Below are positions 15,547 to 34,575 of a stretch of DNA of 37,189 nucleotides, one piece after another. The number at the start of each line of letters is the position of its first letter. Within the stretch, counting starts at the first letter, position 1. This DNA is from Rhodocyclaceae bacterium. GTDB taxonomy: Bacteria > Pseudomonadota > Gammaproteobacteria > Burkholderiales > Rhodocyclaceae. The translations under genes were made by a program, and so were the position numbers. The notes beneath the pieces were generated by a model that worked only from the letters and a program-made list of their open reading frames with translations, was not told where the DNA came from and made no database searches. The stretch is from assembly GCA_028687645.1 (NCBI GenBank), contig JAQTZQ010000019.1, positions 1 to 37,189 on the forward strand, read 5' to 3'.

Positions 15547-15575
15547 TTGCTTAGACTTGACCATCCCGTTATAGT
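15547..15575 (+). promoter_or_regulatory. Original gcv operon promoter
   Basis: TTGCTT (15547-15552), a 17-bp spacer and TATAGT (15570-15575) would start transcription near 15582, immediately before aptamer 1. With the element inserted downstream, it now reads towards the recombinase genes. It overlaps the 5' side of the divergent PHP gene. Confidence 0.65.
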
Positions 15576-15585
15576 GCCCCCCGTA

Positions 15586-15748
15586 TTGTGGGAGAGCGCA
15601 GATAAAGTCTGCCGCCGAAGGCGCAATTTCACCCGAAAACGCTCAGGCAAAAGGACCACAGCACCGAAATGGCTTGCCATTTTGAAACTCTGGAGAGCGG
15701 CGTTTGCAGCGCCCACCGATGGGGCAAATCTCTCAGGTATCGAGGACA
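15586..15748 (+). promoter_or_regulatory. Tandem glycine riboswitch, interrupted at the 3' end of aptamer 2
   Basis: Aptamer 1 runs about 15587-15660: its P1 is TGTGG (15587-15591) with CCACA (15656-15660), and the conserved GGAGAG, GCTCAGGCAAAAGGACC signals are present. Aptamer 2 runs about 15688-15748: CTCTGGAGAG, then TCTCAGGTATCGAGGACA. The next bases should be GAG to close P1 with CTCT (15688-15691), but the sequence changes to TAACCACA. The missing GAGGGG is found at 34489-34494, after the mobile element. The two aptamers are joined by a linker holding a 7-bp hairpin (AAATGGC-TT-GCCATTT, 15667-15682). In intact systems, glycine binding usually turns on gcv expression; here the expression platform is gone. 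Confidence 0.9.
15744..15748 (+). other. Left attachment core (attL)
   Basis: GGACA, shared with the right junction. The left side is riboswitch aptamer 2, the right side is element DNA. Confidence 0.75.
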
Positions 15749-15811
15749 TAACCACAACTGCGACTTCAGTTGTAGTTAAAAGACCCCATAACCACATTCC
15801 AGCTTGGCAAT
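15747..15811. repeat. Repeat cluster at the left end of the element
   Basis: CATAACCACA occurs twice (15747-15756 and 15787-15796; 40-bp period). TAACCACAACTG (15749-15760) and CAGTTGTAGTTA (15767-15778) form a 12-bp inverted repeat with one mismatch around CGACTT, with no U-run, so it is not a terminator. AGCTTGGCAAT (15801-15811) has an inverted 10/11 match at 34424-34434. The cluster resembles recombinase core and arm sites. Confidence 0.55.
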
Positions 15812-15835
15812 CACCCAGATTTTGCACATAAATTC

Positions 15836-15865
15836 TTGTAACTAAATGGCGTTGCGATTTACAAT
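15836..15865 (+). promoter_or_regulatory. Candidate element promoter for the recombinase operon
   Basis: TTGTAA (15836-15841), an 18-bp spacer and TACAAT (15860-15865) precede the first recombinase ATG by about 30 bp. This gives the operon its own promoter besides the captured gcv promoter. Confidence 0.5.
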
Positions 15866-15896
15866 AAACAACAGCTTGAAAAATGACCGTTAACAG

Positions 15897-17150
15897 ATGC
15901 CAACCTACCGTCTAACTCGATTCATCCGTCCCAACGGGGAGCGATACCCAATCCTCGTGGATCAGGACAACATCCCTGTCTTTTACCCCACGCTTTTTGC
16001 AACAGCGAAGATCAGGAACGCGGGATTTGCGGCCAACACGATGGATCAGTACCTTACCTCCATCAAGGTGCTACTACGCTGGAGTGACGAGAAAAGAATA
16101 GATCTTGTGAGCCGCATCCTTACCCAGCAGTTCCTGACAACGGGCGAACTTGATCAACTTGCGGACGAATGCGGAAAAAAGCGGCGTGCCGTGAAAACTG
16201 GAAATGTCGTTTCACTCAAGAAAGGTTGGCGTCGACCAACTCCACAGGTCGACCCCGCCACTAAGTACATTTACATCGGTCGTATCAGCGAGTATTTGAA
16301 ATGGCTATCGGAAGCTTTACTTGCCAAGCGCTTAACGGCGGATGCCCAAGCCCAGATTGATCGCCTAGTTGAAAACATAGAGGCCAGGCGAGTCGCACCA
16401 CGCGGTCGAAACCGCATTGATGATGAAGCTCCGAAAGGGATCACGCTTGAGCAAGAGGCGCGGCTGTTCCACATACTCCAACCGGAATCCCCATTAAATC
16501 CGTTTCACGATGCGGGCGTCCAGGTCAGGAACTACTTGATCGTCAAATTGCTACGACTGACCGGCATGCGTGGCGGGGAAATCCTGAACCTCAAGATCAA
16601 AGATATTGACTGGATCAAAAAGCAACTAAGAATCATCCGCAGGGCAGATACCAAGAAGGACAAGAGGAAGAAACAGGCCCTCTCGAAAACGCGGCAGCGC
16701 GCACTTCCGCTCACGGATAAAACATTGGCTGAAATCCGCTCGTACATTGTCGAGGTTCGTAAGCACATCCCGAACAGTGACAATTGTGAGTATTTGTTTG
16801 TGTCTCAAAAAAGCGGCCCGACGCAAGGCCAGTCACTCTCGCTATCAAGCATGCAGGAACTCTTTTCCGCCATCCGTAAAGCATATCCAGAACTCAACAT
16901 GACAGCCCACGACCTACGTCATCGATGGAATGAGTCTTATAGCGATGCGATCGCCGCGCAAAATAGAATTGGATATCTTGAAGCTGAAAAATTGCGCAGC
17001 CTGCTTGCAGGATGGACGCCAAATAATTCTCAGATGGGCGCGGTCTATAACTCACGCCACATTCGCCGCAAGGCTCACGAAGCCATGCTGGCTACTCAAG
17101 AGCTCACCGAATTGCAGATTCGTGAGCGGCAAAAGCAAATAAGGGACTAG
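15897..17150 (+). CDS. Tyrosine recombinase, first of three (GmtY-like)
   Basis: This 417-aa protein is a complete tyrosine recombinase: an N-terminal SAM-like core-binding part (about 30-170), then the catalytic domain with Arg225 in LTGMRGGEIL, a basic beta-hairpin region (about 245-275), His338 and Arg341 in AHDLRH, and a likely nucleophile Tyr384 in MGAVYNSRH. It probably cuts and joins DNA at the element ends. It opens a six-gene operon and is followed by the second recombinase after 7 bp. Size, position and partners resemble GmtY of the gamma-mobile-trio class; this is from family memory and needs a profile search. The ATG at 15897 has a weak ribosome binding site. Confidence 0.85.
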   Translation: MPTYRLTRFIRPNGERYPILVDQDNIPVFYPTLFATAKIRNAGFAANTMDQYLTSIKVLLRWSDEKRIDLVSRILTQQFLTTGELDQLADECGKKRRAVKTGNVVSLKKGWRRPTPQVDPATKYIYIGRISEYLKWLSEALLAKRLTADAQAQIDRLVENIEARRVAPRGRNRIDDEAPKGITLEQEARLFHILQPESPLNPFHDAGVQVRNYLIVKLLRLTGMRGGEILNLKIKDIDWIKKQLRIIRRADTKKDKRKKQALSKTRQRALPLTDKTLAEIRSYIVEVRKHIPNSDNCEYLFVSQKSGPTQGQSLSLSSMQELFSAIRKAYPELNMTAHDLRHRWNESYSDAIAAQNRIGYLEAEKLRSLLAGWTPNNSQMGAVYNSRHIRRKAHEAMLATQELTELQIRERQKQIRD

Positions 17151-17157
17151 ACAAACT

Positions 17158-18903
17158 ATGAATGATTCTAGGCACTTGAATGTGATCCGCGATGCTCACG
17201 TATCCGACACGGGAAACAGTTCAAACCTCCCCGAAGAGTGGTGTGAATCTCTTGCCGGTGAAAAGTTCAATCTCAACGCCGACCGTTGGCAGTTGACGAC
17301 CAAAAAATCGCTCAATGTCGGCCCACTGCGCAGTCTTCTGCATTCACCGACCCTTCGAGACAGTGGAATCCGCACGTTGGCACACCTCGCCAAAACGAAG
17401 TCTGTTGATCAATGTATAAATACCTCACTTCAGATGAGGCATTTGTTGCGGTTCTGGGATACACCTCTTGGCGACGAGATTCCCGTCGCCGCAATCACCA
17501 GTTTCCGCCACCATTCGCGCGAGAGCGACGGACACGATGCTAAGGTGTCTGGCCGCATCCGCCCTTTCTTGACGAAGTGGCATGAACTCGGTTATCCAGG
17601 GGTCTCCAAGGAACTGATCGAGCAGATGGCGGACTGGACGCTTAAAAACCAGGAAAGGGGTGCCCGCGCCAACCGACTCGACCCCAATGAAGGCCCCTTG
17701 ATGCCGGACGAGGCACTGAGTTTCAAAGCGCTCGCATTATCGGCCTTCGAAAAGGGATCAATACCACTCGCGGATTACGCTAGCTTCCGCCTCGCCAGTT
17801 TGGGCTACCGCCGACCGGAGCAAATAGTCTCACTTAAATGCAAGGACATGGACGACTCCAGGCTCGAAACCCGCGAGCCAAATAGGCTTCCCGAGCGCAT
17901 GCTACTCCTGATGGTCCCGCGCGTGAAAGGCGGGCGTTCCTGGCGCAAACATTTTCGCTCTATCCCCCTCTCCGTAGATTTGTGGAACCTGCTCGCCCTT
18001 CACCGTACAGAGGTAATCCGGCGCTTTGATGAGCTTCTGGCCTCGCTTGCGCTTAAACTCCAACAGCAGGAACTTAAATTTATCCACGACGAACTGGCAC
18101 TATTCCCGGCGTGGATGCTAATCAAGAAATCGCTGCAAACCTTGGCGATGCTTATAGATGACGGAAAATACGGTGAGGCGGTCAATCACCTGCGCGACCT
18201 CGTGGTTTCGAGAACTTGGCACGCGGAGACTATAGTAGGTATCCGTGATCCCCTTGCTCGCATCGTTGCCGCCACACACGCCATCAATCGCAACAATGAA
18301 CCCTTGAAAGTATTCCAGACTCGTTTCCGTTACACGGCAAACTTTGAAATGGAACGGCAGGGCTGCCCTCCCCCTGTTAGGGCGTGGAACTTGGACCACG
18401 AAACGACTGATTCACTAATCAGTTACCATACGAATGGACCCGACGCAGCTGCCCGATTGAGCAAAGCAACCGCCAATGGCATGTCGAAATATGTTCGGAT
18501 GTTCCAAGGTAAAGTCGTCGACCGTGAGTCGGATGCAGAAGGGGGAAGCGACCCGGACGCTTCGCGCCTATTCATCCATGGCATGCATGAGGGAGCGACC
18601 TGTTCTGTCAAACGGGGTTGCGGCATGACGACCATCCCGCGTTGTTGCTATGCCGGATGTGCGCACTTCCAGCCATGGGTCGACGGCCCCCACGAGGCGC
18701 TGTTGGACGAACTGCTAGAAGAGCGCGAGTTACTCCTTAAATCTTTGCGCCCGTTGGAGGATCGCAAAATTATAGAGGCGAATGACGGACTCATCCTCGG
18801 CGTCGCCCAGGTGATCTGGCTGTGCGAGTCCCGTCGCCAGGAACTCATCGCCGAAGCGAAGCAAGCGGACGGTAAGAAACATCATAAAGGAGCACGAAAA
18901 TGA
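17158..18903 (+). CDS. Tyrosine recombinase-like protein, second of three
   Basis: The 581-aa product has a diverged recombinase catalytic domain: Arg218/219 in LGYRRPEQIVSL, a basic VPRVKGGRSWRKHFRSIPL strand, RFRYT (Arg391) in place of the HxxR box, LDHE (His414) and ISYHT (possible nucleophile Tyr423). An insertion rich in helices lies between the arginine boxes (about 285-385). The C terminus has a Cys cluster (CSVKRGCG...RCCYAGC) and a coiled-coil-like ELLEERELLLKS segment. It probably works in a complex with its neighbours and not alone. It resembles proteins annotated in Vibrio GMT islands as VPA1269-type (recalled, unverified). Its stop overlaps the next start (ATGA). Confidence 0.7.
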   Translation: MNDSRHLNVIRDAHVSDTGNSSNLPEEWCESLAGEKFNLNADRWQLTTKKSLNVGPLRSLLHSPTLRDSGIRTLAHLAKTKSVDQCINTSLQMRHLLRFWDTPLGDEIPVAAITSFRHHSRESDGHDAKVSGRIRPFLTKWHELGYPGVSKELIEQMADWTLKNQERGARANRLDPNEGPLMPDEALSFKALALSAFEKGSIPLADYASFRLASLGYRRPEQIVSLKCKDMDDSRLETREPNRLPERMLLLMVPRVKGGRSWRKHFRSIPLSVDLWNLLALHRTEVIRRFDELLASLALKLQQQELKFIHDELALFPAWMLIKKSLQTLAMLIDDGKYGEAVNHLRDLVVSRTWHAETIVGIRDPLARIVAATHAINRNNEPLKVFQTRFRYTANFEMERQGCPPPVRAWNLDHETTDSLISYHTNGPDAAARLSKATANGMSKYVRMFQGKVVDRESDAEGGSDPDASRLFIHGMHEGATCSVKRGCGMTTIPRCCYAGCAHFQPWVDGPHEALLDELLEERELLLKSLRPLEDRKIIEANDGLILGVAQVIWLCESRRQELIAEAKQADGKKHHKGARK

Positions 18904-21113
18904 CCAACATGATGCTCCCTCATCTAAATATGGTTCTGCCTAATGCGGTGACGCAAAATCTCGCCATATTCATTGCCGAAGCAAAGGCCCTGACCATCTT
19001 CGGCAAAGATCTTGACTGGGACCACTGGAACTGGCCCGGGGTTGGCAACTTCACCGTAATGGGGAGCCGAAGATTTAGAAAGACTACGCAACATTCGGTT
19101 GTGCTCCTGCACCCGTCCTTCTTGGACTTCGCCAAAGCATATGTCCGCTACGCCGAAAGCGAAAATCCCAGCAAAAGCGCTCGTGCAATTAATCTGGCAG
19201 CACTGCGCGCGGTTGAGAGCGCCTTATTGATAGGAAATCTAGATGCCAATCCGGCAAACATCACGCTCGCCACTTTGAACCAGGCAGCGCAGATCGTGCG
19301 CACGCACTTTGCCTCAAAAGGTGTAGCGTACAGCGTTGGAGTAAGTCTCCATCTACTGGCCCGGGTAATGAGTCGTAAGGGGCTTACGCGCAACGATATC
19401 CGGTCATGGTCCAATCCGATTGCCGCTCCCGACCTTATAAATACCAAGCTTGGTGCCGAAGCCGACGCTCATCGCCAAAAGCGACTTCCAGACGAGCGTG
19501 CCATTAAGGGTATCGGGGGCAAATTTGCCGACGGGTTTGACCTTCATGATCCCTCCACCCATCCGGACGTCTATCTGACGTCCACCGTCGCTCTTCTCCT
19601 CCACGCATCCTCACGCGGTCAGGAGCCACACGAACTGATGATTGATGCTGAGTGCGAAGACTACGATCAGGAAGGCATTCTGCGCTACGGCCTTCGCTGG
19701 CATGCCGGAAAGAACACTAAGGACCCCTCCAAAATCAAGTGGGGCAACTCGTCGATGGAACCGTTCGTGCGTGAAGCGTTTCGTCGTATGCAGGTGATCA
19801 CAGACGAACCCCGCGCCTTCGCTCGCTATTGCGAGCAGCAACTGGAACTGCGAAGAAGGAACATCGATGTAACGCTGCCTTTCTACCGCCACGCTATGTG
19901 CCCGGACGTCCCCGACGACCAGCCCCTCAATGCCGCACAAGTACGCGCCGCGCTCGGCTCAAAATCAACAGCGTGGTCCATCCTGCCCGACAAGGGACTG
20001 TCGAACAAACCTGGGACCTACACCCTGAACAGCCTATGGCTGTGGGTGCTCAACCGTCTGCCCAAAGGCTTCCCTTACGTGGTGGGTGCCAAAAACAAAC
20101 ACCTCAAGTACAGCGAGGCGCTGTTCTGCATGCACAAGTCTCAACTCAAAGCAGGGGAAAACAGCACCACCGACCCCGTCTCGGTGTGGATGCCGAGCAT
20201 AGCTCAACTCTCCGGCATGCTGGGCGGTGCAACGTCAAAGGGCTTTAAAAGCTTTTTCGAGCGACACGGCATTTTGGACGAGACCGGCACACCGCTACGC
20301 TTACGTTCGCACTCTTTCCGCCACTTGCTTGACACCATTGAGCACGAAGGTACGGGAAAGGACTTCCTCGAAGACGCGTTCATCAACGCCCGCGCAGGGC
20401 GATCTGCTGCCTATCAGGGCGCCACCTACAATCACTCTTACCCTGAGGACAAAGCTGAAATCGTACGTGACGCATTGACTCGTCCAGATGGCAGTGTGGC
20501 CGTAATAGATCTACCCAAACCGGCTGCTGACCCCCCCCAGGAAACCCAGCACTGGGTGGTCACCCGGCCGGGACCGCGCTCGTGCGCCGACATTGAAATT
20601 AATCATCGCAGTGCGGTACTCAATACCCTTTGGGGTGGCTGCGAGCACGACTGGTTACTCGAACCTTGCCAGTACCATCGCGACTGCCTCAACTGCAAGG
20701 AGCACTTCTGCATCAAGGGAGCCGGCAAAGATGATCAGGAACGCCTAGAACGACTGCGCGCATTGTTGCCCATGGTGATTCATCAACAGCAACTTGCCAA
20801 AGTGGCCATGGATAAAGGCAAGCCAGGCTCTAAATTCTGGCACCAGCATCAAACCGATTACCGCGAACGAATCGAACAGTTGATACATATCCTAGAAGAC
20901 CCCAGCGTACCCGAGAACTCGACGGTACGGCTAGCTGATGGCAAAGCCAATTCACATCTGCATCGAGTGCTGCGTGAGGTAGTCCTGCGCCGGATCGAAG
21001 ACAAGTCGGAAACCAAGGACGTGATCGACGCCCTAGAATCTGCCTTTCGCGAGAACCGCGCGCTACCCATCAAAGAAATCGTCTTACTCCGACTGGAGCA
21101 ACACCATGGCTAG
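18900..21113 (+). CDS. Large tyrosine recombinase/integrase, third of three (GmtZ-like)
   Basis: This 737-aa protein has a long N-terminal region (about 1-190) and a recombinase catalytic domain with Arg239 in ASSRGQEPHEL, His471 and Arg474 in HSFRHLLD, and Tyr510 in GATYNHSYP as the likely nucleophile. After it comes a C-terminal Cys/His cluster (GGCEHDW...CQYHRDCLNCKEHFC, about 581-604) that looks like a zinc-binding knuckle, then a helical tail. Size and layout resemble GmtZ-type integrases (recalled, unverified). Start overlaps the previous stop (ATGA) and its end overlaps the next gene by 8 bp. Confidence 0.75.
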   Translation: MTNMMLPHLNMVLPNAVTQNLAIFIAEAKALTIFGKDLDWDHWNWPGVGNFTVMGSRRFRKTTQHSVVLLHPSFLDFAKAYVRYAESENPSKSARAINLAALRAVESALLIGNLDANPANITLATLNQAAQIVRTHFASKGVAYSVGVSLHLLARVMSRKGLTRNDIRSWSNPIAAPDLINTKLGAEADAHRQKRLPDERAIKGIGGKFADGFDLHDPSTHPDVYLTSTVALLLHASSRGQEPHELMIDAECEDYDQEGILRYGLRWHAGKNTKDPSKIKWGNSSMEPFVREAFRRMQVITDEPRAFARYCEQQLELRRRNIDVTLPFYRHAMCPDVPDDQPLNAAQVRAALGSKSTAWSILPDKGLSNKPGTYTLNSLWLWVLNRLPKGFPYVVGAKNKHLKYSEALFCMHKSQLKAGENSTTDPVSVWMPSIAQLSGMLGGATSKGFKSFFERHGILDETGTPLRLRSHSFRHLLDTIEHEGTGKDFLEDAFINARAGRSAAYQGATYNHSYPEDKAEIVRDALTRPDGSVAVIDLPKPAADPPQETQHWVVTRPGPRSCADIEINHRSAVLNTLWGGCEHDWLLEPCQYHRDCLNCKEHFCIKGAGKDDQERLERLRALLPMVIHQQQLAKVAMDKGKPGSKFWHQHQTDYRERIEQLIHILEDPSVPENSTVRLADGKANSHLHRVLREVVLRRIEDKSETKDVIDALESAFRENRALPIKEIVLLRLEQHHG

Positions 21114-21552
21114 AAACCGCATCTTTACTGACACAGACATCGAAGGCATCATCGAAGTAATACGAGCATGGCCCACGGGCACCATCGCATGGGCCAATGT
21201 GTGTAAGAAAGCAGAATCTGTATTGGGTTTTATTCCCTCGCGTCAGGGACTCAGCCAACACCAAGCGATTCAAACTGCATTTCAGGCCAGAAAGGAAGGC
21301 CTTCGCATTGCCCCGCAAAAAGATAGGCCCATGCCCAGTAGTTTAGCCGTGGCATCCGAGCGGATCGCCCGCCTCAATGCCCAGATCGCTGAACTGGAAC
21401 TGGAGAACACCCGCCTACGCGACCGATTTATCACCTGGCAGTACAACGCTCATGCACGAAACATGACGCAAGCAGATTTGGACACCCCGCTGCCTCAAAT
21501 TGATCGTGAGGTAGATTCATCCGAAAAGGATGAATACGGGAGAGTCATATGA
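21106..21552 (+). CDS. Small accessory protein of the recombinase module (GmtX-like)
   Basis: This 148-aa protein has no catalytic motif I recognise. Residues about 1-70 look helical and DNA-binding-like (FTDTDIEGIIEVIRAWP ... SRQGLSQHQAIQTAF), and about 82-112 form a coiled coil (IARLNAQIAELELENTRLRD). Its place after three recombinases recalls small accessory subunits such as TnpC of Tn554 or GmtX of GMT elements. It overlaps both neighbours, so it is probably translated together with them. Confidence 0.6.
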   Translation: MARNRIFTDTDIEGIIEVIRAWPTGTIAWANVCKKAESVLGFIPSRQGLSQHQAIQTAFQARKEGLRIAPQKDRPMPSSLAVASERIARLNAQIAELELENTRLRDRFITWQYNAHARNMTQADLDTPLPQIDREVDSSEKDEYGRVI

Positions 21553-22022
21553 GTACGCAGGGACTCAGCGGCCAGCAGATCGCGGCCAATAATCTGCAAA
21601 AGTTTCAGTCTTGGATTCTTGAGCGCGACGCTACCGCTGACTGGTTAGACTATGTTCGTCAAGGCAAGCTCAACCGGAGCGAAATCGCAACCGAGTGCGG
21701 CTTTGCCCTATCTGTCGTTCGTCAGAACCCAGCGGTAAAGGCTGCCTTGGAGGCGCTGGAATCTCGCCTGCAAGCATCAGGCATACTCGAAAATAATACA
21801 GCTACATCTAGCATGACTGATGCGACCGCAGACATAGCGACAATTCACGCAGTAGATCGTCGCATCATGGCTGCCAAGTCAAAAGCGGAACAGCGGGTCA
21901 AGTCTCTTGAGGAACAAAATGCGGCTCTAAAAGCCGAATTACGCGACGTGCGCGAGCAACTGAAGAACTACAGGTACTTGGACGAACACCTCTGTGCCAC
22001 CGGAAGACTTTTGTACGCATGA
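21549..22022 (+). CDS. Second small coiled-coil protein of the recombinase module
   Basis: This 157-aa protein has a helix-turn-helix-like N-terminal half (GKLNRSEIATECGFALSVVRQN, about 39-60) and a C-terminal coiled coil (about 108-147). I do not recognise a function; it resembles proteins called VPA1267-type in Vibrio islands (recalled, unverified). ATGA overlaps at both ends (21549 and 22019) place it firmly in the operon. Confidence 0.6.
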   Translation: MSTQGLSGQQIAANNLQKFQSWILERDATADWLDYVRQGKLNRSEIATECGFALSVVRQNPAVKAALEALESRLQASGILENNTATSSMTDATADIATIHAVDRRIMAAKSKAEQRVKSLEEQNAALKAELRDVREQLKNYRYLDEHLCATGRLLYA

Positions 22023-24253
22023 GTGACCTGTCCGTTCAGCTTCGCATAACGTCCATCCGTAGCCGAGGGAAGTTCGGCGGCGTAATTTTCGCTGGCAGAA
22101 CAGACGCTGGCGAAAACTACGTGGCAGTATGCCACCATAAATTAATTCCGGATTCGAGCCTCGTCGACAAAGGGCAGCAATGGAGGATTCGCGGGACTCC
22201 GTCCTTGCGAGAAACATTCGGGTCGAACGGTTTTAAAATAAAGGAAATGCAGATCACCGCTGTGGAGGTTGAATTGGTTCGTCCCTCTGGGCGCAACCTC
22301 ATCGACTGGATTGCCGAGTGTCCAGATTGCCAGGGCATCGGGCAAGTTAGGGCCAGTAGGCTCTACGACCACTTTGGCCCCTCCCTCGTTGACCACATTG
22401 AACAGAAGAACCTCGGCGCATTGGCAGAAGTCATCAGCGAGGATGCTGCTGAACTGCTCTGCCACGCCTTCACTAAACATCATATGTCAAGCACACTGCT
22501 TTGGTTGGATAAGGCAGGCATTCCGCGTCGAATCGGCAAAAAAATTACCGACTTCTACAAGGACAAGGCGCAAGAGAAAATCGAGGCCAACCCCTACGTA
22601 CTAATCAGCTTCGAAGCCAATTGGAAGACAGTCGATGAACTCGCGCGCCAGCGTTTCAGTGTCCCATTGGATGATCCACGTCGATTGGAAGCTGCAATTG
22701 AAGAATCGCTGTATCGCGGACTGAAAAGCGGGCATACGTGCTTGCCGGCCAATCAGCTCCGAACTCGCCTGACGACCCTCCTTGGAAATTCAAATGCGCT
22801 TGCCGACCAGGCGCTTGCCGGAGGCATGATCAGCAGCCAGTACCGCGTGATTGGCGACATCTACCAGGCCAGCGGCATGTATTTGATCGAAAGCTATCTA
22901 ACGAACCGTTTGCAGGCGATGGTGATAGGAGAGAATGAACAAGGACAGGTGGGGCTGTTCGGGAAACCGTCCTATGATCCTCGTAACGTCGACAGGGTTA
23001 TTGCAACCTACGAACGAGCCCATGCGATCCAACTGTCGCAGGAGCAGAAGGAAGCGGTGCGACGTAGCGCAGGCGCATACCTGAGCCTCATTCTTGGCGG
23101 TGCTGGTACTGGCAAGACGACCGTATTAAATGCGCTCTATGAGGTTCTGGAAGAGTTGCAACCTGACGTGCCGATCTACCAACTGGCGCTGGCTGGGCGT
23201 GCCGCGCAGCGCATGTCCGAAGCGACTGGCCGGGAAAGCATGACCATTGCCGGCTTTCTAACGAAAGTAGATTCTGGCCAGATCGACCTGGGATCGGTCG
23301 TTGTGGTGGATGAAATGTCGATGGTCGATGTAATTCTGATGTATCGCCTTTTACGCCACATACCTCCGGGGGTTCGATTGATCTTGATCGGTGATCCTTC
23401 GCAGTTGCCGCCCATTGGCCCCGGTCTGGTACTGCATGCATTGGCCGGCTTGGCGTCAATCCCGCAGACTGAGTTGAAGGTCGTCAAGCGCCAAAGTAGT
23501 GCCAGCGGCATACCAAAAGTTGCAGCAGCGATTCGTGCCCATAACGTGCCAACCTGGGCTCCTTACAACGGTAACCCCAGCCATGGTGTCTCCTTCATTT
23601 CCTGTTCGCTGGAGGAGCTAGAGTCGACCGTGGAGCGTGTTTACGAAGAACTTGGGGGAACTGGCACGGACAACCGTGTGCAGATCCTCTCCATCACCAA
23701 TTCGAACGTCGGCGGGGTAAAGAACGTCAATGCTGCCCTGCACGGCCGCTATCGGCAGGGTGCTGAGCCTGTCCATTGTCCAGATGCTGAATTTGGCGTG
23801 GTGGGCGCCACAACGCTTGAGCGCGTGCCATTGAAGGTTGGTGACCTAGTGATCTACACCGAGAACGATTACACCCTTGGCCTACGCAATGGCAGTCTCG
23901 GCAGGATCGTTGGAACGCTTCCTGTCGGCGAGCCCGACGAGCCTTGCTGTGTCTGCGACTTCGAAGGCACCGAATACCGTCTAACTGCCGCGCATATGCA
24001 TGCACTCAATCACGCCTACTCGATCACTGTCCACAAGAGCCAAGGCAGTCAATTTGAACGGGTGATCGTGCCGATCCGTGACTCACGACTTCTCGACCAA
24101 ACCTTGATCTATACGGCTGTGACCCGTGGGGTAGCCCAGGTAGTTATTATAGGGGACTTAGCCACCGCTGAGAGTGCAATCAAGGCACCAGCGTCTGCTG
24201 CGCGCCGACACATCACACTCCCCACGCTACTTGTGTCTGAAATCGGGTCATGA
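22019..24253 (+). CDS. RecD-like superfamily 1B helicase/ATPase
   Basis: The 744-aa protein has an N-terminal region with helix-hairpin-helix-like stretches (about 100-200), as in RecD2, then an SF1B helicase core: Walker A LGGAGTGKTTVL (about 358-369), Walker B VVVVDEMSM (Asp431), GDPSQLPPIGPG (about 460), and the UvrD/RecD C-terminal motif SITVHKSQGSQFERVIV (about 668-684). The enzyme probably unwinds DNA 5' to 3'. Being last in the recombinase operon by ATGA coupling, it may process DNA during element excision, replication or integration (inference). No RecB/RecC partners are present, so a RecBCD role is unlikely. Confidence 0.8.
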   Translation: MSDLSVQLRITSIRSRGKFGGVIFAGRTDAGENYVAVCHHKLIPDSSLVDKGQQWRIRGTPSLRETFGSNGFKIKEMQITAVEVELVRPSGRNLIDWIAECPDCQGIGQVRASRLYDHFGPSLVDHIEQKNLGALAEVISEDAAELLCHAFTKHHMSSTLLWLDKAGIPRRIGKKITDFYKDKAQEKIEANPYVLISFEANWKTVDELARQRFSVPLDDPRRLEAAIEESLYRGLKSGHTCLPANQLRTRLTTLLGNSNALADQALAGGMISSQYRVIGDIYQASGMYLIESYLTNRLQAMVIGENEQGQVGLFGKPSYDPRNVDRVIATYERAHAIQLSQEQKEAVRRSAGAYLSLILGGAGTGKTTVLNALYEVLEELQPDVPIYQLALAGRAAQRMSEATGRESMTIAGFLTKVDSGQIDLGSVVVVDEMSMVDVILMYRLLRHIPPGVRLILIGDPSQLPPIGPGLVLHALAGLASIPQTELKVVKRQSSASGIPKVAAAIRAHNVPTWAPYNGNPSHGVSFISCSLEELESTVERVYEELGGTGTDNRVQILSITNSNVGGVKNVNAALHGRYRQGAEPVHCPDAEFGVVGATTLERVPLKVGDLVIYTENDYTLGLRNGSLGRIVGTLPVGEPDEPCCVCDFEGTEYRLTAAHMHALNHAYSITVHKSQGSQFERVIVPIRDSRLLDQTLIYTAVTRGVAQVVIIGDLATAESAIKAPASAARRHITLPTLLVSEIGS

Positions 24254-24588
24254 GCTTAGCGAAGGGCTGTCAAGACACCGTGGAATAAATGGGAGGGGCC
24301 CGCTTGCGGGAGGCAGCCCGTTTATGCCGCGAAAGGCCTTGACGGACCGTAGCGACCCAACGCTCTCGGCTGCTGGGGTGGGTTGGTTTTTAACCCGCCC
24401 CGGCTGCCTCACGGCGAGTGCGGGGTTTGGGGCTGCGCCCCGAGGGGTTAATTTGGCGATGGATGTAATATCCATCAGGCCGTTATCAAGTTGGTTCGCA
24501 ATTCGCTGCCAGTTACATGTCTTGAATATCGATTGCTACGGCAGTTGTTCAGAAATCATCTGGTTAACCTAAACGAGCGGTTTTCTAT
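24254..24588. other. Gene-free gap between the two converging blocks
   Basis: The gap holds no plausible gene. It is GC-rich and structured: CCCGC-TT-GCGGG (24299-24310); GGGGTGGGTT (24375-24384) with AACCCGCCCC (24392-24401) around GGTTTTT; GGGGC-TGC-GCCCC (24429-24441); and GATGGAT-GTAAT-ATCCATC (24458-24476). Some of these hairpins may end one or both converging operons, although none has a clean U-run. Confidence 0.5.
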
Positions 24589-27348: not shown

Positions 27349-27366
27349 GCGGTAGCTATGCTTTTG

Positions 27367-30264
27367 TCAATGATCGTTCTCCACCGCCCCGGCAAGCCGT
27401 TCAGCAGCGTCGGCATCTTCGGCCCAGTGCGGCATGTGGCCGATATGGGCAAGTGGCTTGAAGTAGGCCAACAGGGCGAGGATGGCCTTGCGCTTGCCCC
27501 AGTAATCCACGGCACCATCGGTCTTGAGGTAGTCAAGACCAGCGCGGGCGTTTTCATCGCGCACGGTTTCGGCGATGGCGAACAACACATGGCGGGTCAG
27601 ACTGCTGGCAAAGCCTTCGCCCTCCAACTGCTGGCGCTTGAATTCGCTGGCCGTCTTAAAGCGTACGGCGTTGGCTTCGGAGCGTTCATACAGGTTGGTG
27701 TATTCGCGTACGCCAAAACCCTTGGCCAGTTCAATATAGGCCCCGGCCCGAGCCTCGCGGTGACACTCCAGTTCCAGCCCCTTTAGATAAAGGCGCTCAT
27801 CAGAACCAAGGCTCTTCCAATGGAATTCGTCAAAGCCACGTGGTATCAGGTGATTGGCGGCAATTTCAACGGCACGGTCAATAACCTTCTCGAACTCGGA
27901 CTTTTGATTGCGGGTGCGTTCGCGGAACAGTTCATGGCGGATATCCATTCCCTCGATGTCAGCGAACTGGGTCAGCACACGCAGGGCCGCAGCGTAGGCG
28001 GCCAACTGGTAATCGGTGTCACCGAAGTTCGGTTCGGATTCATCGTCCAGCGTAGTCATGCTGTCGAGCTGCTGTTTGACTTCATCTTCGATCAGCGGAT
28101 AGATTTCGTCCAGCCAGGCGGAGCGCTGATCAGTACGTTTGCGCAGCACCAGATTGACGGTACCTTGGACGTAGTTGCCCTTCTTGATGCCACCCGTGGC
28201 CGTTTCCGTGCTGATTGTCCAAGCTGCAGTAACCTTGAGGCCGCTGGCCCACAGAATCATGCCGAGGTCGCCCCATACCGCTGGGTTTTGATGGGTGAAT
28301 TGCACCAGTTGCAGCCCATTGTCCGACATGTGCCGGGCAAGATTGGCGTAAATGTCCATCATCGATCGCTTGAAATCATCGCCAGTGCCTTTTACAGACA
28401 ATGTAGTCACATCTTGAAAGCGCCACTCCTTGAAAGCCATTGGCAACAGGCGCTCATACCAGGCAAGAAAGTAATCGGTCAACTCGTGGTAATTGACCGC
28501 ATCGGCATAGGGAGGGTCTGAGAACCAAATATCGGCCTCAGTCGCAACCTCACGGGCATCCATCAACTTGATAGTGGCTGCCGGATTCGCCACGGGTGCC
28601 CTAGTTAAATCGACTGACAGAAAATTTTCAATACCCGACAAGGGACGGCTACCGTAGGTGAAAAGTGTATTCAGTGTTGGGCTAATGAACATTGATTTCG
28701 TTGACCCAGGCCCTTTTGAGAAATGGGGATCGATTGCACATAGCCTGGAAAGACGATTTACAGCCGACCCCGTGCTGATTGCGGCAGTACAAACCCGCAA
28801 AGGATCAGTTGGACATGGTTCAACTGCGCTCTTGATAAATGTGCCTAACATGAACAATTGGCGCGGGGTGAATAAATGATGCCAATGCGTCCATCCTCTT
28901 TCACGGTAAAGCCTAGTTGTCTCATCGCCATGCGGAATTTCTCGGCTCGGAATATATCCTTTTGCCTGCCAATCAACAAAGTGTTGCATTACCAAAGCCA
29001 ACGTCTTTGCCTCACGAGCAATATCCGCTCCGTCAGGTGCCGCATAGACGCGATTTTCGCCCGGTACCGACCATCGCACACAATAAAGCCGCTCCTGAAA
29101 TACATCGTCAGCACGTGATACTAGTTCGGAATTCTCCCAGTGTCGCAAGCCAAGAATTTTCTCTCCATTCACTCGCCGGTCGCCGCGCAGGTCAGCGATG
29201 GAATAGCTGTTGCCAGTTTCTGGACATACCATGCGGCTGCCCTGCAATGCACCTTTTACCGCCTTATGCATCATTGCCGCATCGGCGCCACTAATAATTT
29301 CAATGTCGTAGTTACCCTTTGCCGTATTCTTTTTGATAACAGCACAGACCTTGTATTTCTCAGAGATCACCCACGATGGCGCGAGCGGTACCCACAGGCC
29401 TGTAGCTGGAGACTTGGCTTCGGTCACGTAATATAGCTGCTCATGTCGCCATCCCTTGTCATTAGTTTCTAGACCGTGGGCGTCGATTTCCTTGAGCGTT
29501 GCATCGTAGGCAGTTTGCTGAATTTCGCGAACACGCTGGCGGGTCTTGGCATCACCGCCGACCAGATGCAATGCGCTCCAGGTGAGCAAAGCTGCCACCG
29601 GGTTCAAATCAGAGGCGAAGGCAACGCAGCCGAGACGCGCAGCCTCGAAGGGAATGGAGCCGCCGCCGCACACCGGATCACCGATACGGGGGATATGGCC
29701 GAAGCGGCGCACACCGAGTTGCTGCACCAGTTCTGGCAACGTGGTAGCCGTGGTTCCCAAATGGCCGTTGATGTCTGCCCATGCTTCGGGTGAGGGGCCG
29801 TCTATCTGCTCCGGGCGCAGGCAATAGTCAAGCTTTTCGTCGTAAGGCAAGCGGTCGAAGGCCAAGCGCTGGACAAGGTCTTTCTCTTCTGTACTGAGGC
29901 CCGCCCCCCAGCGAGGTTTGCGGTCGCCGTTCTCGTCGCGCAACCAACAGCGAATTTCGTCTTCAGTCAGGAGTGTTTCCAGCGTTTCCTGGTCGATGGG
30001 CTTGCTTTTTCGCTGCCGCAAACCAGCTTCGTCCATTGTCATTATCTTGAGGAAAATGTCACGGTCACGCTTTGGGTCGCTCGACACCGGCATCAGCAGC
30101 CCGATCAGACACGCACGAACCAGCACCAGGGGTTTGCGGCCCCACCACTTACCAACGCCCGTCAGTGTTTGGCTGGAACCAGCCCCGGCCATGCGTTCTT
30201 TATAGGATTCCGCCGAGACGCGCGCCACCGGAAATTGTTGTTCTATGAAGCTCAAATTGTTCAT
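27367..30264 (-). CDS. DUF1156 DNA methyltransferase of an anti-phage system
   Basis: The 965-aa protein starts with the DUF1156 pattern (FPVARVSAESYKER and KWWGRKPLVLVR). A SAM-binding-like DPVCGGGSIPFEA lies near residue 197 and the amino-methyltransferase motif SDPPYADAVNYHEL near 581. DPPY enzymes methylate N6-adenine or N4-cytosine. About 380 residues separate the two motifs and probably contain target recognition. It would mark self DNA for the linked ATPase and helicase (inference from modification-based defence). It follows the DUF3780 gene by 14 bp. Confidence 0.87.
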   Translation of the reverse strand: MNNLSFIEQQFPVARVSAESYKERMAGAGSSQTLTGVGKWWGRKPLVLVRACLIGLLMPVSSDPKRDRDIFLKIMTMDEAGLRQRKSKPIDQETLETLLTEDEIRCWLRDENGDRKPRWGAGLSTEEKDLVQRLAFDRLPYDEKLDYCLRPEQIDGPSPEAWADINGHLGTTATTLPELVQQLGVRRFGHIPRIGDPVCGGGSIPFEAARLGCVAFASDLNPVAALLTWSALHLVGGDAKTRQRVREIQQTAYDATLKEIDAHGLETNDKGWRHEQLYYVTEAKSPATGLWVPLAPSWVISEKYKVCAVIKKNTAKGNYDIEIISGADAAMMHKAVKGALQGSRMVCPETGNSYSIADLRGDRRVNGEKILGLRHWENSELVSRADDVFQERLYCVRWSVPGENRVYAAPDGADIAREAKTLALVMQHFVDWQAKGYIPSREIPHGDETTRLYRERGWTHWHHLFTPRQLFMLGTFIKSAVEPCPTDPLRVCTAAISTGSAVNRLSRLCAIDPHFSKGPGSTKSMFISPTLNTLFTYGSRPLSGIENFLSVDLTRAPVANPAATIKLMDAREVATEADIWFSDPPYADAVNYHELTDYFLAWYERLLPMAFKEWRFQDVTTLSVKGTGDDFKRSMMDIYANLARHMSDNGLQLVQFTHQNPAVWGDLGMILWASGLKVTAAWTISTETATGGIKKGNYVQGTVNLVLRKRTDQRSAWLDEIYPLIEDEVKQQLDSMTTLDDESEPNFGDTDYQLAAYAAALRVLTQFADIEGMDIRHELFRERTRNQKSEFEKVIDRAVEIAANHLIPRGFDEFHWKSLGSDERLYLKGLELECHREARAGAYIELAKGFGVREYTNLYERSEANAVRFKTASEFKRQQLEGEGFASSLTRHVLFAIAETVRDENARAGLDYLKTDGAVDYWGKRKAILALLAYFKPLAHIGHMPHWAEDADAAERLAGAVENDH

Positions 30265-30278
30265 GCTGGTCTTGTCGC

Positions 30279-30899
30279 CTAATTCTTGTTTTCGGTGGGC
30301 GCTAACTCAAACTCGGCCAGTCGGCGCTGAATCAAGCCTTCCGACACTGGGTTTTCAGTGAGTGCATAGCGCAACGCCTTGCGCCAACCCTTGCCTTTGC
30401 CATTGATGGCATGGCCGGTGGCGGCATTGGTCATGGTGTAGAGCCACCAGCGCTCTTCCGGCACCAGCCCCAGCCAATTGCGAATGGCAGTGGGGATCAG
30501 CGCCGGATCGCATTCCTCCACCGCCCAGGCTAGAACACATAACTCCTTGCCCAAGGTGCGGTCGATGGGCACCTGGCCCGCTTGCAACCATTTGGCGGTC
30601 TTCTGCCCGTAGATGCGCAGGCGGCGGTTGAACTCGGCCTTCACATCCTCGGCAATCAGGTCCCATACTGCGCGGCGCAGGATGATGCGCAAATGCGCAT
30701 TGGTGGAATTGAGCGGCACAGGTATCGGCACTTCGTCGGTAGGCTCGAACCACTCGAAGTGCTCGGAGATAGTCACCTCCGCCCCCTCGCCCTTGCTTCG
30801 CGGTAGGGTCAACAAAAAAAAGTGCTCGGAAAGCTCAGGCTGAAAGCCGAAGCCCAGCGCCGTTGGTTTCTTGGGCGCAGTTACTTTGGCTTGTGCCAT
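30279..30899 (-). CDS. DUF3780 protein of an anti-phage system
   Basis: This 206-aa protein contains no catalytic motif I can see. Sequence and position between DUF499 and DUF1156 genes identify the DUF3780 family found almost only in this operon type. Notable stretches are GFGFQPELSEHFFLL near the N terminus and PEERWWLYTMTNAATGHA near 150. Its ATG overlaps the DUF499 stop by one base (TAATG), implying coupled translation and a fixed ratio to the ATPase. Its molecular role is unknown. Confidence 0.8.
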   Translation of the reverse strand: MAQAKVTAPKKPTALGFGFQPELSEHFFLLTLPRSKGEGAEVTISEHFEWFEPTDEVPIPVPLNSTNAHLRIILRRAVWDLIAEDVKAEFNRRLRIYGQKTAKWLQAGQVPIDRTLGKELCVLAWAVEECDPALIPTAIRNWLGLVPEERWWLYTMTNAATGHAINGKGKGWRKALRYALTENPVSEGLIQRRLAEFELAPTENKN

Positions 30900-33800
30900 T
30901 ACTGGCTGACCTCACCGGGTTGCAGGCTGCCGTGAATGGCGGCAATCCAGTCAAGTAGCAGTTGCCCACGCTCAAAGCGAATGCTGGTGGCGCTGATGGT
31001 GACCTGACTTCCACCGACGATCTCCTGCATTTTCTTGACAGTTTCGCGCAGGCGGCTGCCTGCCACCAGTTCATTCTCGCCAGCGATGAAAGAGAGTGAC
31101 ACATCTGTGTCGTTGCCGGTGACATCCACCACCAATTCGCGCGCCTGACCCTGGTGCTTTTCGAGCAGATCAATAAATGCAAAGGCTGGGGCGGCGGTGA
31201 GGTTGCGATGCGGATGCGACCACAGCGCAGGCAATGCGGCATCGACCGCTACTTTTTTGGTGCGGTATTCCTCTACATCGATCTTTTCGACATTGGAGCG
31301 AATGTCGCCATCTTCCGCAACGGCCAGCACGAAACGGCATTCAGTGGGTAAGGAAAACGGAGTGTCGTAAGCGCCACCGCTTGCCACAGGGTCGGCACCA
31401 TTGGTTGTGTATCGCAAGTGGCCGCGCGGCACAGCGTGCAATTCGACGCGCCAGTCTTCGCCCTGCTGGAAGACGCGGTACTTCACGGCCAGCGTGTTTT
31501 TCCAAGCAACCACTTGACCCGCTTCATGCTTGCCCGAGGAATCGACACACAAAAAGGTGAGTTTCAGTTCCCGCGTGCGGAAATTGTTGTAGCCGCCTTC
31601 GGCCTCGCTGACCTTGAGCGACCCGGTGGTCGGCTGGGTATCGCCAATTTCGTAGTGGACGGTGTCGCCATTTTGCGGGGTGATTTTGAGAAAAGCCTCG
31701 CCGGTTTTGTCGTCGCGCGACAGGAGGCGCACCTGCACTTCGGTCTTGGGCGGCGGGAATGGGCCTTTTTCAACCGAGTCACCTAGGTCGCGCCACTGGC
31801 CTTCGTTGATTGCCTTGGTTTTGAGCACATCGAGTGCATCCGGGCGGTGTAGCGGCCAGGCGTCGGACATGGCGGCACGGCGCTTGATTTCGTTCCACTT
31901 GGCAGTCTTCTGGCCCTGGAACAAACGGTCTTCGCACTTGCGGCGGAAAGTATCGTTGTTGGTGTCGGTCTCGAACTTCTTGGCGTTGGTTAGCGTATCG
32001 CGGATTAGCTTTTCGCCGTCAAACTGGTTGTTCTGGAAGTTGATACGACAGTCGGTGGTGCGCAGCTGCCCCATGCTCGGATAGACCAGCGTGGTGAAGG
32101 TTTCCTGAATGGCAGAACGCAGGCGCAGAGTAATCTGGTCAAGATTCTGGTTGGCCTGCTGGCGCTGCGGGTCACGCGTGGTGACGCCAGTTGAATCCAT
32201 CTCGGCCAAGATACTGTTGATCGCCTTGAACTGCGCCGACTGTTCCAGTACATGGGTGAGCGTTTCCTGCGAACCCGTGAGATATAGCGCGCGGTTCTTG
32301 AATTCTTGATCGGTATGAAATTTGACCCACTCCTTGGGCAGTTTGGTCGCCGTATCAATGTCGTTGCCTGGTTGCACCAGCAGCAGGGCGGTCTTGTCAG
32401 ATTCGAGGTGCACCTCGTCGATGGCGGCAAGCATTTCAATGCGCTGGTAGCAATCGCGCACGCCGGGCTGGAACAAGCCTTCAAGATAAGCGCGAAGCTC
32501 CTTCAGGCAGGTTTGTTGGTTGTATTGCCGTGCGGTGGAATGCAACTTGGCGGCAAGGTTCTGGATGTCCTTGTAGAACAGGCGGCCGTCGTTGCTCTGG
32601 TGCAGATACCAGGCTTGTGTGGGCAGGTAATCGACGATCTCTTTCTTGACCTTGGAAATGTCACGACCTGGCGCGCACAGGAAGGCCATGATGTCGTTCT
32701 GGCGTAGCCCATGTGTAGCACCGGGAACACTGGCAAGGCTGGCTACCAGCAGCAGCTTAGATACATCTTGCGCATCGGTGCAGCTGTATTTGGTATCTAT
32801 GTCCTCTGCGACGGAATGCCCATTGTTGGCAATGTCATGACTGATGGCCTCTGAAAGCGACGGATTGATTGAACGAATTTCAGAAACGATTTCGTCGCTA
32901 TTGAGGTCGAGGTTGTAGGGGTGAATCAGTTGCAGCTTGTCGGCCTGACCCGTTTCCCACAGATTCGATACCACCATGCGCATCAGTCGGATAAGTCCAC
33001 GGGTTTGCTGAAAGCCGGGGTTTTCTTTGAAACGGGCATATAGATCGCGCAGCCCGAAGTGAAACGGGTAGGACTCTGACAGTTGCGCGGCAAAGGAATC
33101 CGGCGAGTGGTTGGTGACATCCATCTCTCGCGCCGCTTTGACTGCCAGCGCGTAGGCGTTGGCGACCTCGGTGCGCACCGACTGGTCGGGCAGGGTCTGA
33201 AATAGTCGGGTACGCAGAATGTGATAAAGCTCTTCGCCCTGCGAGGAGACCGGTTCAATGCGCAGCGCTGAGCGGCTGGTTTCGTTCTTGAGGTTGTCCA
33301 ATGCCGTGTTGAGCATCGCGCCGCCGGTTTGCCACGAAGCCGTGAGGTCGGCGATGACGACACAGACATTCGACAGTTCTGCTTTGTTCACCGCTACCAA
33401 CAGGTTGGCGATTGCGGTCGCGGTTACGGTGGAGAGCGTCGTTGAACCGATGGATTTGGCCTGGACTGCCTCCAAGTAGGGCGGCAGTTCGTCCAGAAAT
33501 ATCAGCGTCGGTTCACCCTTGAGTAAATTGATCCATGCGCTTTGCCCTGGCGCTTGCAGCGGCTGATAGTAGTCCTTTAATACATCTTTCTTACCAGGCT
33601 GATCGGCAAGTTCCCCCCAAATACCGAACTGGGCATCGGTCTGGCGACCATGAAAGCCAATCACACGAACGCCGCCGACCTTGCTACCGTAACCGGCCTT
33701 GCCCAAGACCTTCTCCCGCAAGGCAGGATTCTTGGCAAGCAGACCAAGCGCAATCATGTTGTGGGTTTTGCCGCCGCCCATAGATTGCGTGAGCAGAAAG

Positions 33801-34003
33801 GTGCTGGCCTGGTCACCGCGATTTTCGAGCCGGGCAAAGGTCTTCTCGAACAGGGTTTTCATGCCGCTGGTGATGAAGTTCTCCTCAAAGAACTTTTCAC
33901 CTTCGATCTTCCCCTCCAGAAAATCGGACAGGTCGAGGACGATATCGCGGCGATTGCGGTCGAAAACGCTTTGGCGCGGTTTGCAATGGGTCTTAAGAGT
34001 CAT
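30899..34003 (-). CDS. DUF499 ATPase of an anti-phage system
   Basis: This large 1034-aa P-loop protein has Walker A SMGGGKTHNM (Lys79) and Walker B LIFLDELPPYLEA (Asp171/Glu172), both near the N terminus, then long helical regions and a C-terminal part with beta-rich repeats. DUF499 proteins are paired with DUF1156 methyltransferases in archaeal and bacterial defence islands and may act as the sensor or motor. It is the first gene of the minus-strand operon. Its ATG at 34003 has a weak ribosome binding site, and no strong promoter is visible upstream; TATATA near 34056 is the only AT-rich candidate. Confidence 0.85.
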   Translation of the reverse strand: MTLKTHCKPRQSVFDRNRRDIVLDLSDFLEGKIEGEKFFEENFITSGMKTLFEKTFARLENRGDQASTFLLTQSMGGGKTHNMIALGLLAKNPALREKVLGKAGYGSKVGGVRVIGFHGRQTDAQFGIWGELADQPGKKDVLKDYYQPLQAPGQSAWINLLKGEPTLIFLDELPPYLEAVQAKSIGSTTLSTVTATAIANLLVAVNKAELSNVCVVIADLTASWQTGGAMLNTALDNLKNETSRSALRIEPVSSQGEELYHILRTRLFQTLPDQSVRTEVANAYALAVKAAREMDVTNHSPDSFAAQLSESYPFHFGLRDLYARFKENPGFQQTRGLIRLMRMVVSNLWETGQADKLQLIHPYNLDLNSDEIVSEIRSINPSLSEAISHDIANNGHSVAEDIDTKYSCTDAQDVSKLLLVASLASVPGATHGLRQNDIMAFLCAPGRDISKVKKEIVDYLPTQAWYLHQSNDGRLFYKDIQNLAAKLHSTARQYNQQTCLKELRAYLEGLFQPGVRDCYQRIEMLAAIDEVHLESDKTALLLVQPGNDIDTATKLPKEWVKFHTDQEFKNRALYLTGSQETLTHVLEQSAQFKAINSILAEMDSTGVTTRDPQRQQANQNLDQITLRLRSAIQETFTTLVYPSMGQLRTTDCRINFQNNQFDGEKLIRDTLTNAKKFETDTNNDTFRRKCEDRLFQGQKTAKWNEIKRRAAMSDAWPLHRPDALDVLKTKAINEGQWRDLGDSVEKGPFPPPKTEVQVRLLSRDDKTGEAFLKITPQNGDTVHYEIGDTQPTTGSLKVSEAEGGYNNFRTRELKLTFLCVDSSGKHEAGQVVAWKNTLAVKYRVFQQGEDWRVELHAVPRGHLRYTTNGADPVASGGAYDTPFSLPTECRFVLAVAEDGDIRSNVEKIDVEEYRTKKVAVDAALPALWSHPHRNLTAAPAFAFIDLLEKHQGQARELVVDVTGNDTDVSLSFIAGENELVAGSRLRETVKKMQEIVGGSQVTISATSIRFERGQLLLDWIAAIHGSLQPGEVSQ

Positions 34004-34483
34004 GGTCGGCGTTTACTTTCTTGTTGTTTCCCGTGATTTCCTAAGATTTTCCGCTATATACCGAAAGAATGAAAGGCTTGAGCCAAGCGGTCGTCCGGAA
34101 CTATTTGTCAGGCTGTGATCGCTGTCTTAGTCATTGCGGAGGTAAGTGGCCTTCTCGCTCTAGCGGGGTTGTCAGAATTTCTGTGTGTGAGGCGTGAATA
34201 GACTTTTCCACGGTGACGGTACCTGATCGCAGCCAGCCGCAGTTAGTGCATCAAGCTAAAGCTCAGACCGTTGGTCTTGGGTGGAAACGCGGGCGTACCT
34301 GTTAAAATCATGTCAACCGGCTCTCTTAGCACTTTATCCCATTTGTAAATAAGAGCCAGGAAATTGAGCCTTAATTTACTAACTTATTTACACAGCTATT
34401 GCAACAAAGGGCACAAGCCATGAATTGGCAAGCTATTCGTCACTCACTCACTCGCTTAATTTGTATCTCACCTGTATTTATAT
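34004..34483. other. Gene-free right end of the element
   Basis: There is no supported gene. Visible items are a bulged inverted repeat GGCTC..TTA/TAAGAGCC (34319-34357), AGCTATT twice (34394-34400 and 34431-34437), ATTGGCAAGCT (34424-34434, the inverted partner of the left arm at 15801-15811), a CACT triplicate (34441-34452) and a lone TAAAAT (34303-34308) with no good -35. The leader and promoter of the DUF499 operon must lie in its left part. Confidence 0.5.
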
Positions 34484-34488
34484 GGACA
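34484..34488 (+). other. Right attachment core (attR)
   Basis: GGACA. The left side (CTGTATTTATAT) is element DNA. The right side (GAGGGGTGAAAC) is the continuation of glycine-riboswitch aptamer 2 and its terminator. Confidence 0.75.
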
Positions 34489-34532
34489 GAGGGGTGAAAC
34501 GCAAGATCCGTTCTTTCGTTTCACCCCTTTTT
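34488..34532 (+). terminator. Orphan glycine-riboswitch terminator upstream of gcvT
   Basis: GGGGTGAAACG (34491-34501) and CGTTTCACCCC (34517-34527) form a perfect 11-bp stem followed by TTTTT. The AGAG just before it is the missing 3' strand of aptamer 2 P1, so glycine binding originally competed with the foot of this hairpin. With the aptamers 18.7 kb away, the hairpin should form whenever it is transcribed. Confidence 0.88.
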
Positions 34533-34575
34533 CGTTTCTAGAACTGACGTTAATAGACGTCTGTAAAGGATTGAT

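Follow-up and report, generated by a model that had tools for sequence, protein, structure and literature searches.

A GInt-like island splits a glycine riboswitch whose conserved 3′ end is a likely attachment site for one branch of these elements

Results

A genomic island within the glycine riboswitch ahead of gcvT

The stretch of DNA analysed here (the window) comprises 37,189 nucleotides from the genome of a Rhodocyclaceae bacterium (G000). Within it, an island of 18,740 bases lies between the second aptamer of a glycine riboswitch and the terminator hairpin that precedes gcvT:

15547..15575, + strand: predicted gcv leader promoter (TTGCTT, 17 nt, TATAGT), assigned by eye
15579..15668, + strand: glycine riboswitch aptamer 1 (Rfam RF00504, 66.8 bits; gathering score 32)
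15680..15748, + strand: host part of glycine riboswitch aptamer 2, interrupted within the P1 3′ strand (Rfam RF00504)
15744..15748, + strand: attL copy of GGACA at the left junction (from the sequence; the relatives' leader matches end here)
15749..34488, no strand: island, 18,740 bases including one GGACA copy (61 of the genus's 63 leaders lack it)
34344..34393, no strand: right-end motif TGTAAATAAG ... TTATTTACAC, probable recombinase-binding site (common to three right ends)
34467..34488, no strand: right-end motif CTCACCYGTAYTTA and attR copy of GGACA (common to three right ends through ACAGA)
34489..34530, + strand: displaced riboswitch end, P1 3′ strand and terminator hairpin (joined directly to the left half in empty relatives)
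34576..35667, + strand: gcvT, single copy (one match in the window's genome)

Both Rfam glycine aptamers of the window are on the left side of the island, and none was found at its right end. The riboswitch starts at 15579 by the Rfam match, not at 15586 as originally predicted. The match to aptamer 2 spans 15680-15759 and scores 40.8 bits against the gathering score of 32, whereas the same aptamer reaches 53.0-54.4 bits in three empty relatives (L002, L005 and L010); the Rfam alignment reveals that extra P1 pairs are missing from the window's aptamer 2. In the occupied leader of another species, G005 (L008), aptamer 2 scores 38.6 bits. The original prediction had named equal scores for the halves and the whole as the outcome that would speak against it; a whole aptamer 2, scored in the empty relatives, exceeds the cut one by 12-14 bits.

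At the left junction the leader runs up to GGACA (15744-15748), in agreement with the prediction, and the leader matches of the relatives end at the same base. At the right junction, the predicted arrangement is also present in the letters: a second GGACA (34484-34488) is followed by GAGGGG, a strong hairpin, a T run and gcvT at 34576. The hairpin (34491-34527) is intact, with a folding energy of -28.8 kcal/mol for 34484-34545 (z -5.8; none of 200 shuffles as good). It was missed by a simple terminator scan, so that calling it a terminator is based on this fold and the trailing T run. The P1 completion and the expression platform thus lie 18.7 kb from aptamer 2 in the window, whereas they adjoin it in 61 empty relatives, and no intact second copy of the leader was found in the window's genome. 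TATAGTG occupies the gcv promoter position in the window and in the six relatives compared; the promoter itself (15547-15575) is absent from the promoter-scan output.

GGACA is the only exact direct repeat at the island ends, with weak similarity in the flanks. It occurs 33 times in the window, and the five-base repeat by itself therefore proves nothing; the argument for a specific site rests on the empty sites and on two further islands, both described below. The right end (34003-34483) has 45.8% GC compared with 55.1% for the island.

The island carries GInt-type genes and predicted anti-phage cargo

The island holds a set of recombinase and accessory genes on the + strand and a cargo set on the - strand:

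15836..15865, + strand: predicted island promoter before ginA (consensus scan, 9/12)
15897..17150, + strand: ginA, tyrosine recombinase (PF00589, 60.6 bits, cut-off 27.1)
17158..18903, + strand: ginB, tyrosine-recombinase-like (NCBIfam NF041502 'site-specific integrase', 318 bits, below the cut-off of 350)
18900..21113, + strand: ginC, recombinase-fold protein (predicted structure)
21106..21552, + strand: ginD (39-66% identical to the proteins at the GinD position in 8 other islands)
21549..22022, + strand: VPA1267-family protein (NF040697, 122 bits, cut-off 90)
22019..24253, + strand: RecD2-like helicase (TIGR01448, 387 bits, below the cut-off of 500; PF14490, PF13604)
24589..27348, - strand: phospholipase-D/SNF2 helicase, predicted anti-phage (NF042964, 1271 bits, above cut-off; PADLOC PLD_Helicase)
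27367..30264, - strand: DUF1156 methyltransferase, predicted anti-phage (NF042963, 1244 bits, above cut-off)
30279..30899, - strand: DUF3780 protein (PF12635, 161 bits; NF042961, 161 bits, below the cut-off of 200)
30899..34003, - strand: DUF499 ATPase (NF042962, 790 bits, below the cut-off of 1200; PADLOC DUF499, 664 bits)

The gene order ginA-ginB-ginC-ginD at the left end matches that of the other islands found, including those behind ssb and nrdA (tblastn). This gene order and the homology to the islands found here fit the GInts, mobile genomic islands that carry three integrases together with GinD. Like the window's island, the GInts described in the main text of Bardaji et al. 2017 (PMC5385486) have ginABCD at the left end, variable cargo that includes restriction-modification-like genes, a short AT-rich right end and a precise site-specific insertion.

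The GinB profile matches XerA (E 2.5e-4). GinC has no family match by sequence; the 14 best PDB fold matches of its model (mean pLDDT 69) are all tyrosine recombinases (best E 1.5e-3), and this moderate-quality model predicts a recombinase fold. A Cys/His cluster at GinC residues 581-604 (C581, H583, C590, C596, C599, C604) is invariant across 11 islands and is perhaps a zinc site. GinD gave no family match. The VPA1267-family gene and the RecD2-like helicase gene lie directly 3′ of ginD in the window, L041, L048 (15165-17830) and L051 (15593-18219) and are absent in G005; the pair is possibly an optional GInt backbone module.

NCBIfam names the minus-strand cargo set anti-phage, two of its four models scoring above cut-off, and an anti-phage action is predicted from these matches. 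The same set (DUF499, DUF1156 methyltransferase, DUF3780 and HKD/PLD-helicase) makes up Type-2 BREX-related systems (PMC12839542). We found no difference between the two, except that the set is borne here by a GInt, an element type unmentioned in the part of that paper considered.

The leader is uninterrupted in most genomes of the host genus

The host genus is Dechloromonas/Azonexus, sampled here with 76 genomes. We saw the leader in 63 of them, and it is uninterrupted in 61; it was not found in the remaining 13, many of which are incomplete. A pattern across the joint (at most two mismatches) is unbroken in 60 of the 76 genomes, and the 61st empty site, in G037, reads through the joint with one G fewer. 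The empty-site sequence across the joint is GGACAGAG. When 15579-15748 was joined to 34489-34600, the product aligned to 28 empty leaders of the genus with no gap at the joint and with 80.1-92.1% identity. Deleting 15749-34488 thus rebuilds one leader, as originally proposed, and the element-free relatives carry the predicted continuous leader rather than the different one that would have counted against the proposal (61 of 63 leader-bearing genomes).

The two interrupted leaders belong to the window's genome and to G005, which are the two genomes of the genus with a close GinA. GinA-like proteins at 28-35% identity are encoded in four more genomes (G013, G037, G050 and G073); the leader is empty in the first three (28-34% identity), and no leader was found in G073.

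Related islands interrupt the riboswitch at the same point

G005, a second species of the genus whose genome is a single contig of 4.17 Mb, has an island at this riboswitch point too, with cargo that differs from the window's. Its leader breaks at GGAC and picks up at ACAGAGGGG about 16.8 kb on, ahead of gcvT, and its gin products are 55% (GinA), 47% (GinB), 51% (GinC) and 66% (GinD) identical to those of the window. The left end of this island (L037 822-870) has CCTGAGAG, a perfect complement of the aptamer's CTCTCAGG; in this island only, the pairing could misfold aptamer 2.

A third case was found in a Sulfuritalea metagenome genome (G709), where an island whose GinA is 44% identical to that of the window splits the gcvT leader. 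There ginA lies 150 bases past the leader's GGACA (L041), and on a second contig the island right end abuts ACAGATGGGG before gcvT, the two halves of the leader being on separate contigs. Among 31 Sulfuritalea genomes the leader is present in 25, and the 24 others all read GGACAGAT unbroken. In this genus aptamer 1 alone passes the Rfam gathering score, in occupied and empty leaders alike, and aptamer 2 was recognised by conserved letters only. Between window 15897-24253 and L041 3639-10576, identity climbs along the backbone (GinA 44, GinB 46, GinC 51, GinD 64, VPA1267 71 and RecD2 79%), as if the recombinases diverged faster or modules had been exchanged.

The three right ends have in common TGTAAATAAG...TTATTKACAC, YTTATTKACTAACTTATTKACAC-like repeats and CTCACCYGTAYTTA, conserved up to ACAGA, and these motifs are probable recombinase-binding sites, judging from their conservation. 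The left ends read GGACATAAC, GGACTAAAG and GGACATAAG, and agree only in GGAC and the A/T-rich bases after it.

Wider searches gave few further cases. Scanning genome contigs with the single GinA sequence returned no relative; the GinA alignment returned 18 loci, one of them with a glycine riboswitch (the Sulfuritalea locus L041). No GinA relatives were found in viral contigs. In the order sample, 2 of 399 genomes matched GinA at E <= 1e-60, namely the window's own and G437, which is without the riboswitch. The family sample gave six of 395 genomes at E <= 1e-70, with the riboswitch in G000 and G709 and none beside ginA in G559, G535, G602 and G779. The left-junction pattern occurred in one of 369 genomes of the class sample, the window's own. 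The protein database held 44 GinA relatives at E <= 1e-30 including the window's own, most from metagenome-type sources.

A tree built from 23 GinA rows places G559 and the three riboswitch islands together in a single branch (support 100/99). The G559 island (L061, L093 and L094) is damaged, adjoins the C-terminal half of an rlmI-like gene (matching positions 225-395 of the 396 in profile NF011707) and has ginA and ginB fused in one frame; no right-end motif was found within 39.8 kb. It looks like a decayed island at a secondary site. Because of G559, the riboswitch label requires two changes on the GinA tree, which 33 of 500 shuffled labels equalled, and its place in an rlmI-like gene means that the GinA branch is not wholly loyal to the riboswitch site.

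Sister islands lie behind ssb (L042, L043, L044, L046 and L047; ssb proteins confirmed by NCBIfam), L044 having a gap of 400 bases after ssb, and behind nrdA (L053, L054 and L057; confirmed by NCBIfam). For L048 (ssb) and for L055 and L056 (nrdA), the target was assigned by eye from the upstream DNA. Both ssb and ribonucleotide reductase are named as GInt targets in the main text of PMC5385486.

Predicted transcription across the junctions

The gin genes are co-oriented with the leader in all three riboswitch islands, and no terminator-like site was found between the junction and ginA in the window, G005 or L041. In contrast, both of the two ssb-type islands scanned have such a site before ginA. 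In another GInt, transcription from outside into ginA has been detected by RT-PCR (PMC5385486). The gcv promoter and the aptamers, without their terminator, would likewise read into ginABCD. Promoter predictions comparable to that of the window precede ginA in L037 (G005) and L041 (Sulfuritalea).

On the other side of the island, the single-copy gcvT would sit behind a terminator without aptamers, and no outward + strand promoter was found at the right end in the window or in G005. Lower gcv expression would be expected because gcvT is single-copy and aptamer-less, with no promoter-like site directed toward it at the right end. We rejected a substitute antiterminator at the right end as a general feature, since 1148 of 2000 shuffles were as good in the window and 646 of 2000 in Sulfuritalea. 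At the right end of G005, eight bases are complementary to the 5′ arm of the terminator, a match equalled in 12 of 2000 shuffles.

Discussion

Three related islands stop at the same point of a riboswitch, and three is a small number of independent cases; this recurrence suggests that they probably use the riboswitch sequence for docking. We consider it highly probable that the island of the window is a GInt between aptamer 2 and the gcvT terminator, and that one GInt branch likely has the conserved riboswitch 3′ end as its attachment site. The original prediction, in which a conserved regulatory RNA serves a mobile element as attachment site, is likely to hold, given the empty leaders and the two related islands stopping at the same point. 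It had further presented such a site as not known for this element type. That type is a GInt, and GInts have been described before as preferring the conserved ends of genes (PMC5385486).

GInts insert at conserved places and excise as circles, and circle excision needs all four gin genes, according to the main text of PMC5385486. From the position of the islands, their ends and this published reaction, we infer site-specific recombination here too. The recombinases are predicted to join a circular island to GGACA|GAG, a sequence that is conserved because the RNA needs it. After integration, the host promoter and both aptamers would face ginABCD with the terminator gone, and gcvT would lie behind the terminator, deprived of aptamers and promoter. 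Excision would restore the riboswitch exactly.

How far the function of the RNA matters to the island is a separate question. Tyrosine recombinases read DNA, and the target could simply be a stretch of DNA that lies in a riboswitch by coincidence, RNA function being irrelevant and no regulation gained, an account toward which we lean slightly. It is in keeping with the sister sites at ssb and nrdA, which have only conservation in common with the riboswitch, and with the right ends of the window and Sulfuritalea, where no new RNA switch was found. Nothing speaks directly against it; however, the insertion parts the sensor from the actuator exactly at their boundary, and the stretch after the cut has no terminator-like site, unlike the two ssb-type islands scanned, a small sample. 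The common orientation of gin genes and leader in three cases and the RT-PCR result on host-to-ginA transcription in another GInt (PMC5385486) would agree with selection of the leader as a host promoter behind glycine sensors that feeds ginABCD, glycine modulating mobility. We regard this as improbable, because the insertion removes the expression platform and leaves aptamers without a known output, and because each island has its own predicted promoter before ginA. A further reading, in which the riboswitch 3′ end is the dedicated site of a GInt branch and forms a two-part device, integration plugging the glycine leader into the recombinase operon and shutting the glycine-cleavage operon behind a terminator, and excision reconnecting both, is a tentative suggestion that we hold to be doubtful.

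In place of a site preference, one could propose a one-off chance insertion or a faulty assembly join, since the window's genome is a draft of 310 contigs and the relative in G559 is located elsewhere. The same arrangement is nevertheless found within the single 4.17 Mb contig of G005 and is repeated in Sulfuritalea, with right ends conserved to the same base, which makes this explanation extremely improbable.

Neither the GInts with their site preference nor the cargo system is new. The GInt targets given in the main text of PMC5385486 are an ABC-transporter gene, ssb and ribonucleotide reductase, and the word riboswitch is absent from that text, whereas the target in the window is a riboswitch; the published elements have imperfect direct repeats of 10-17 nt, compared with exactly repeated five bases here. 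Among the papers listed in the literature search, none described a riboswitch serving as attachment site; PMC7643969, PMC4907049, PMC9569102 and PMC5644110 are, in the parts considered, unrelated. Islands in tRNA and tmRNA genes (Islander, PMC4383910, as far as considered) also have a conserved structured-RNA gene as attachment site, but they restore the RNA gene that they split, whereas the riboswitch of the window stays split, with no right-end aptamer by Rfam. The nearest precedent by place is Vibrio cholerae Aux3 (PMC7721734), a mobile element that also lies beside gcvT, between gcvT and thrS. Aux3 is P4-like with a single integrase, unlike the island of the window, and the main text of PMC7721734 mentions no riboswitch. 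The strand-biased circularizing elements (SEs, PMC10214605) have several recombinase-type genes at the left end, as here; in the part of that paper considered, they are marked by tfp and srap genes and are set apart from GInts by sequence.

If the preferred reading is correct, mobile islands dock at riboswitches as well as at tRNA genes, the other structured RNAs used in this way, but the riboswitch remains split where its sensor meets its actuator. A natural experiment would then be on offer in two species of one genus and in one Sulfuritalea, where the glycine switch is gone from a metabolic operon present in single copy, and a glycine-binding leader has been gained by a recombinase operon. 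It would also suggest that catalogues of integration sites based on tRNA and protein genes have missed regulatory RNA. Plasmids hold GinA-like integrases as well, in 43 records (all below 60%, about 37% identity), 30 of them from Escherichia and 28 predicted to be conjugative, and these could provide a route of GInt transfer.
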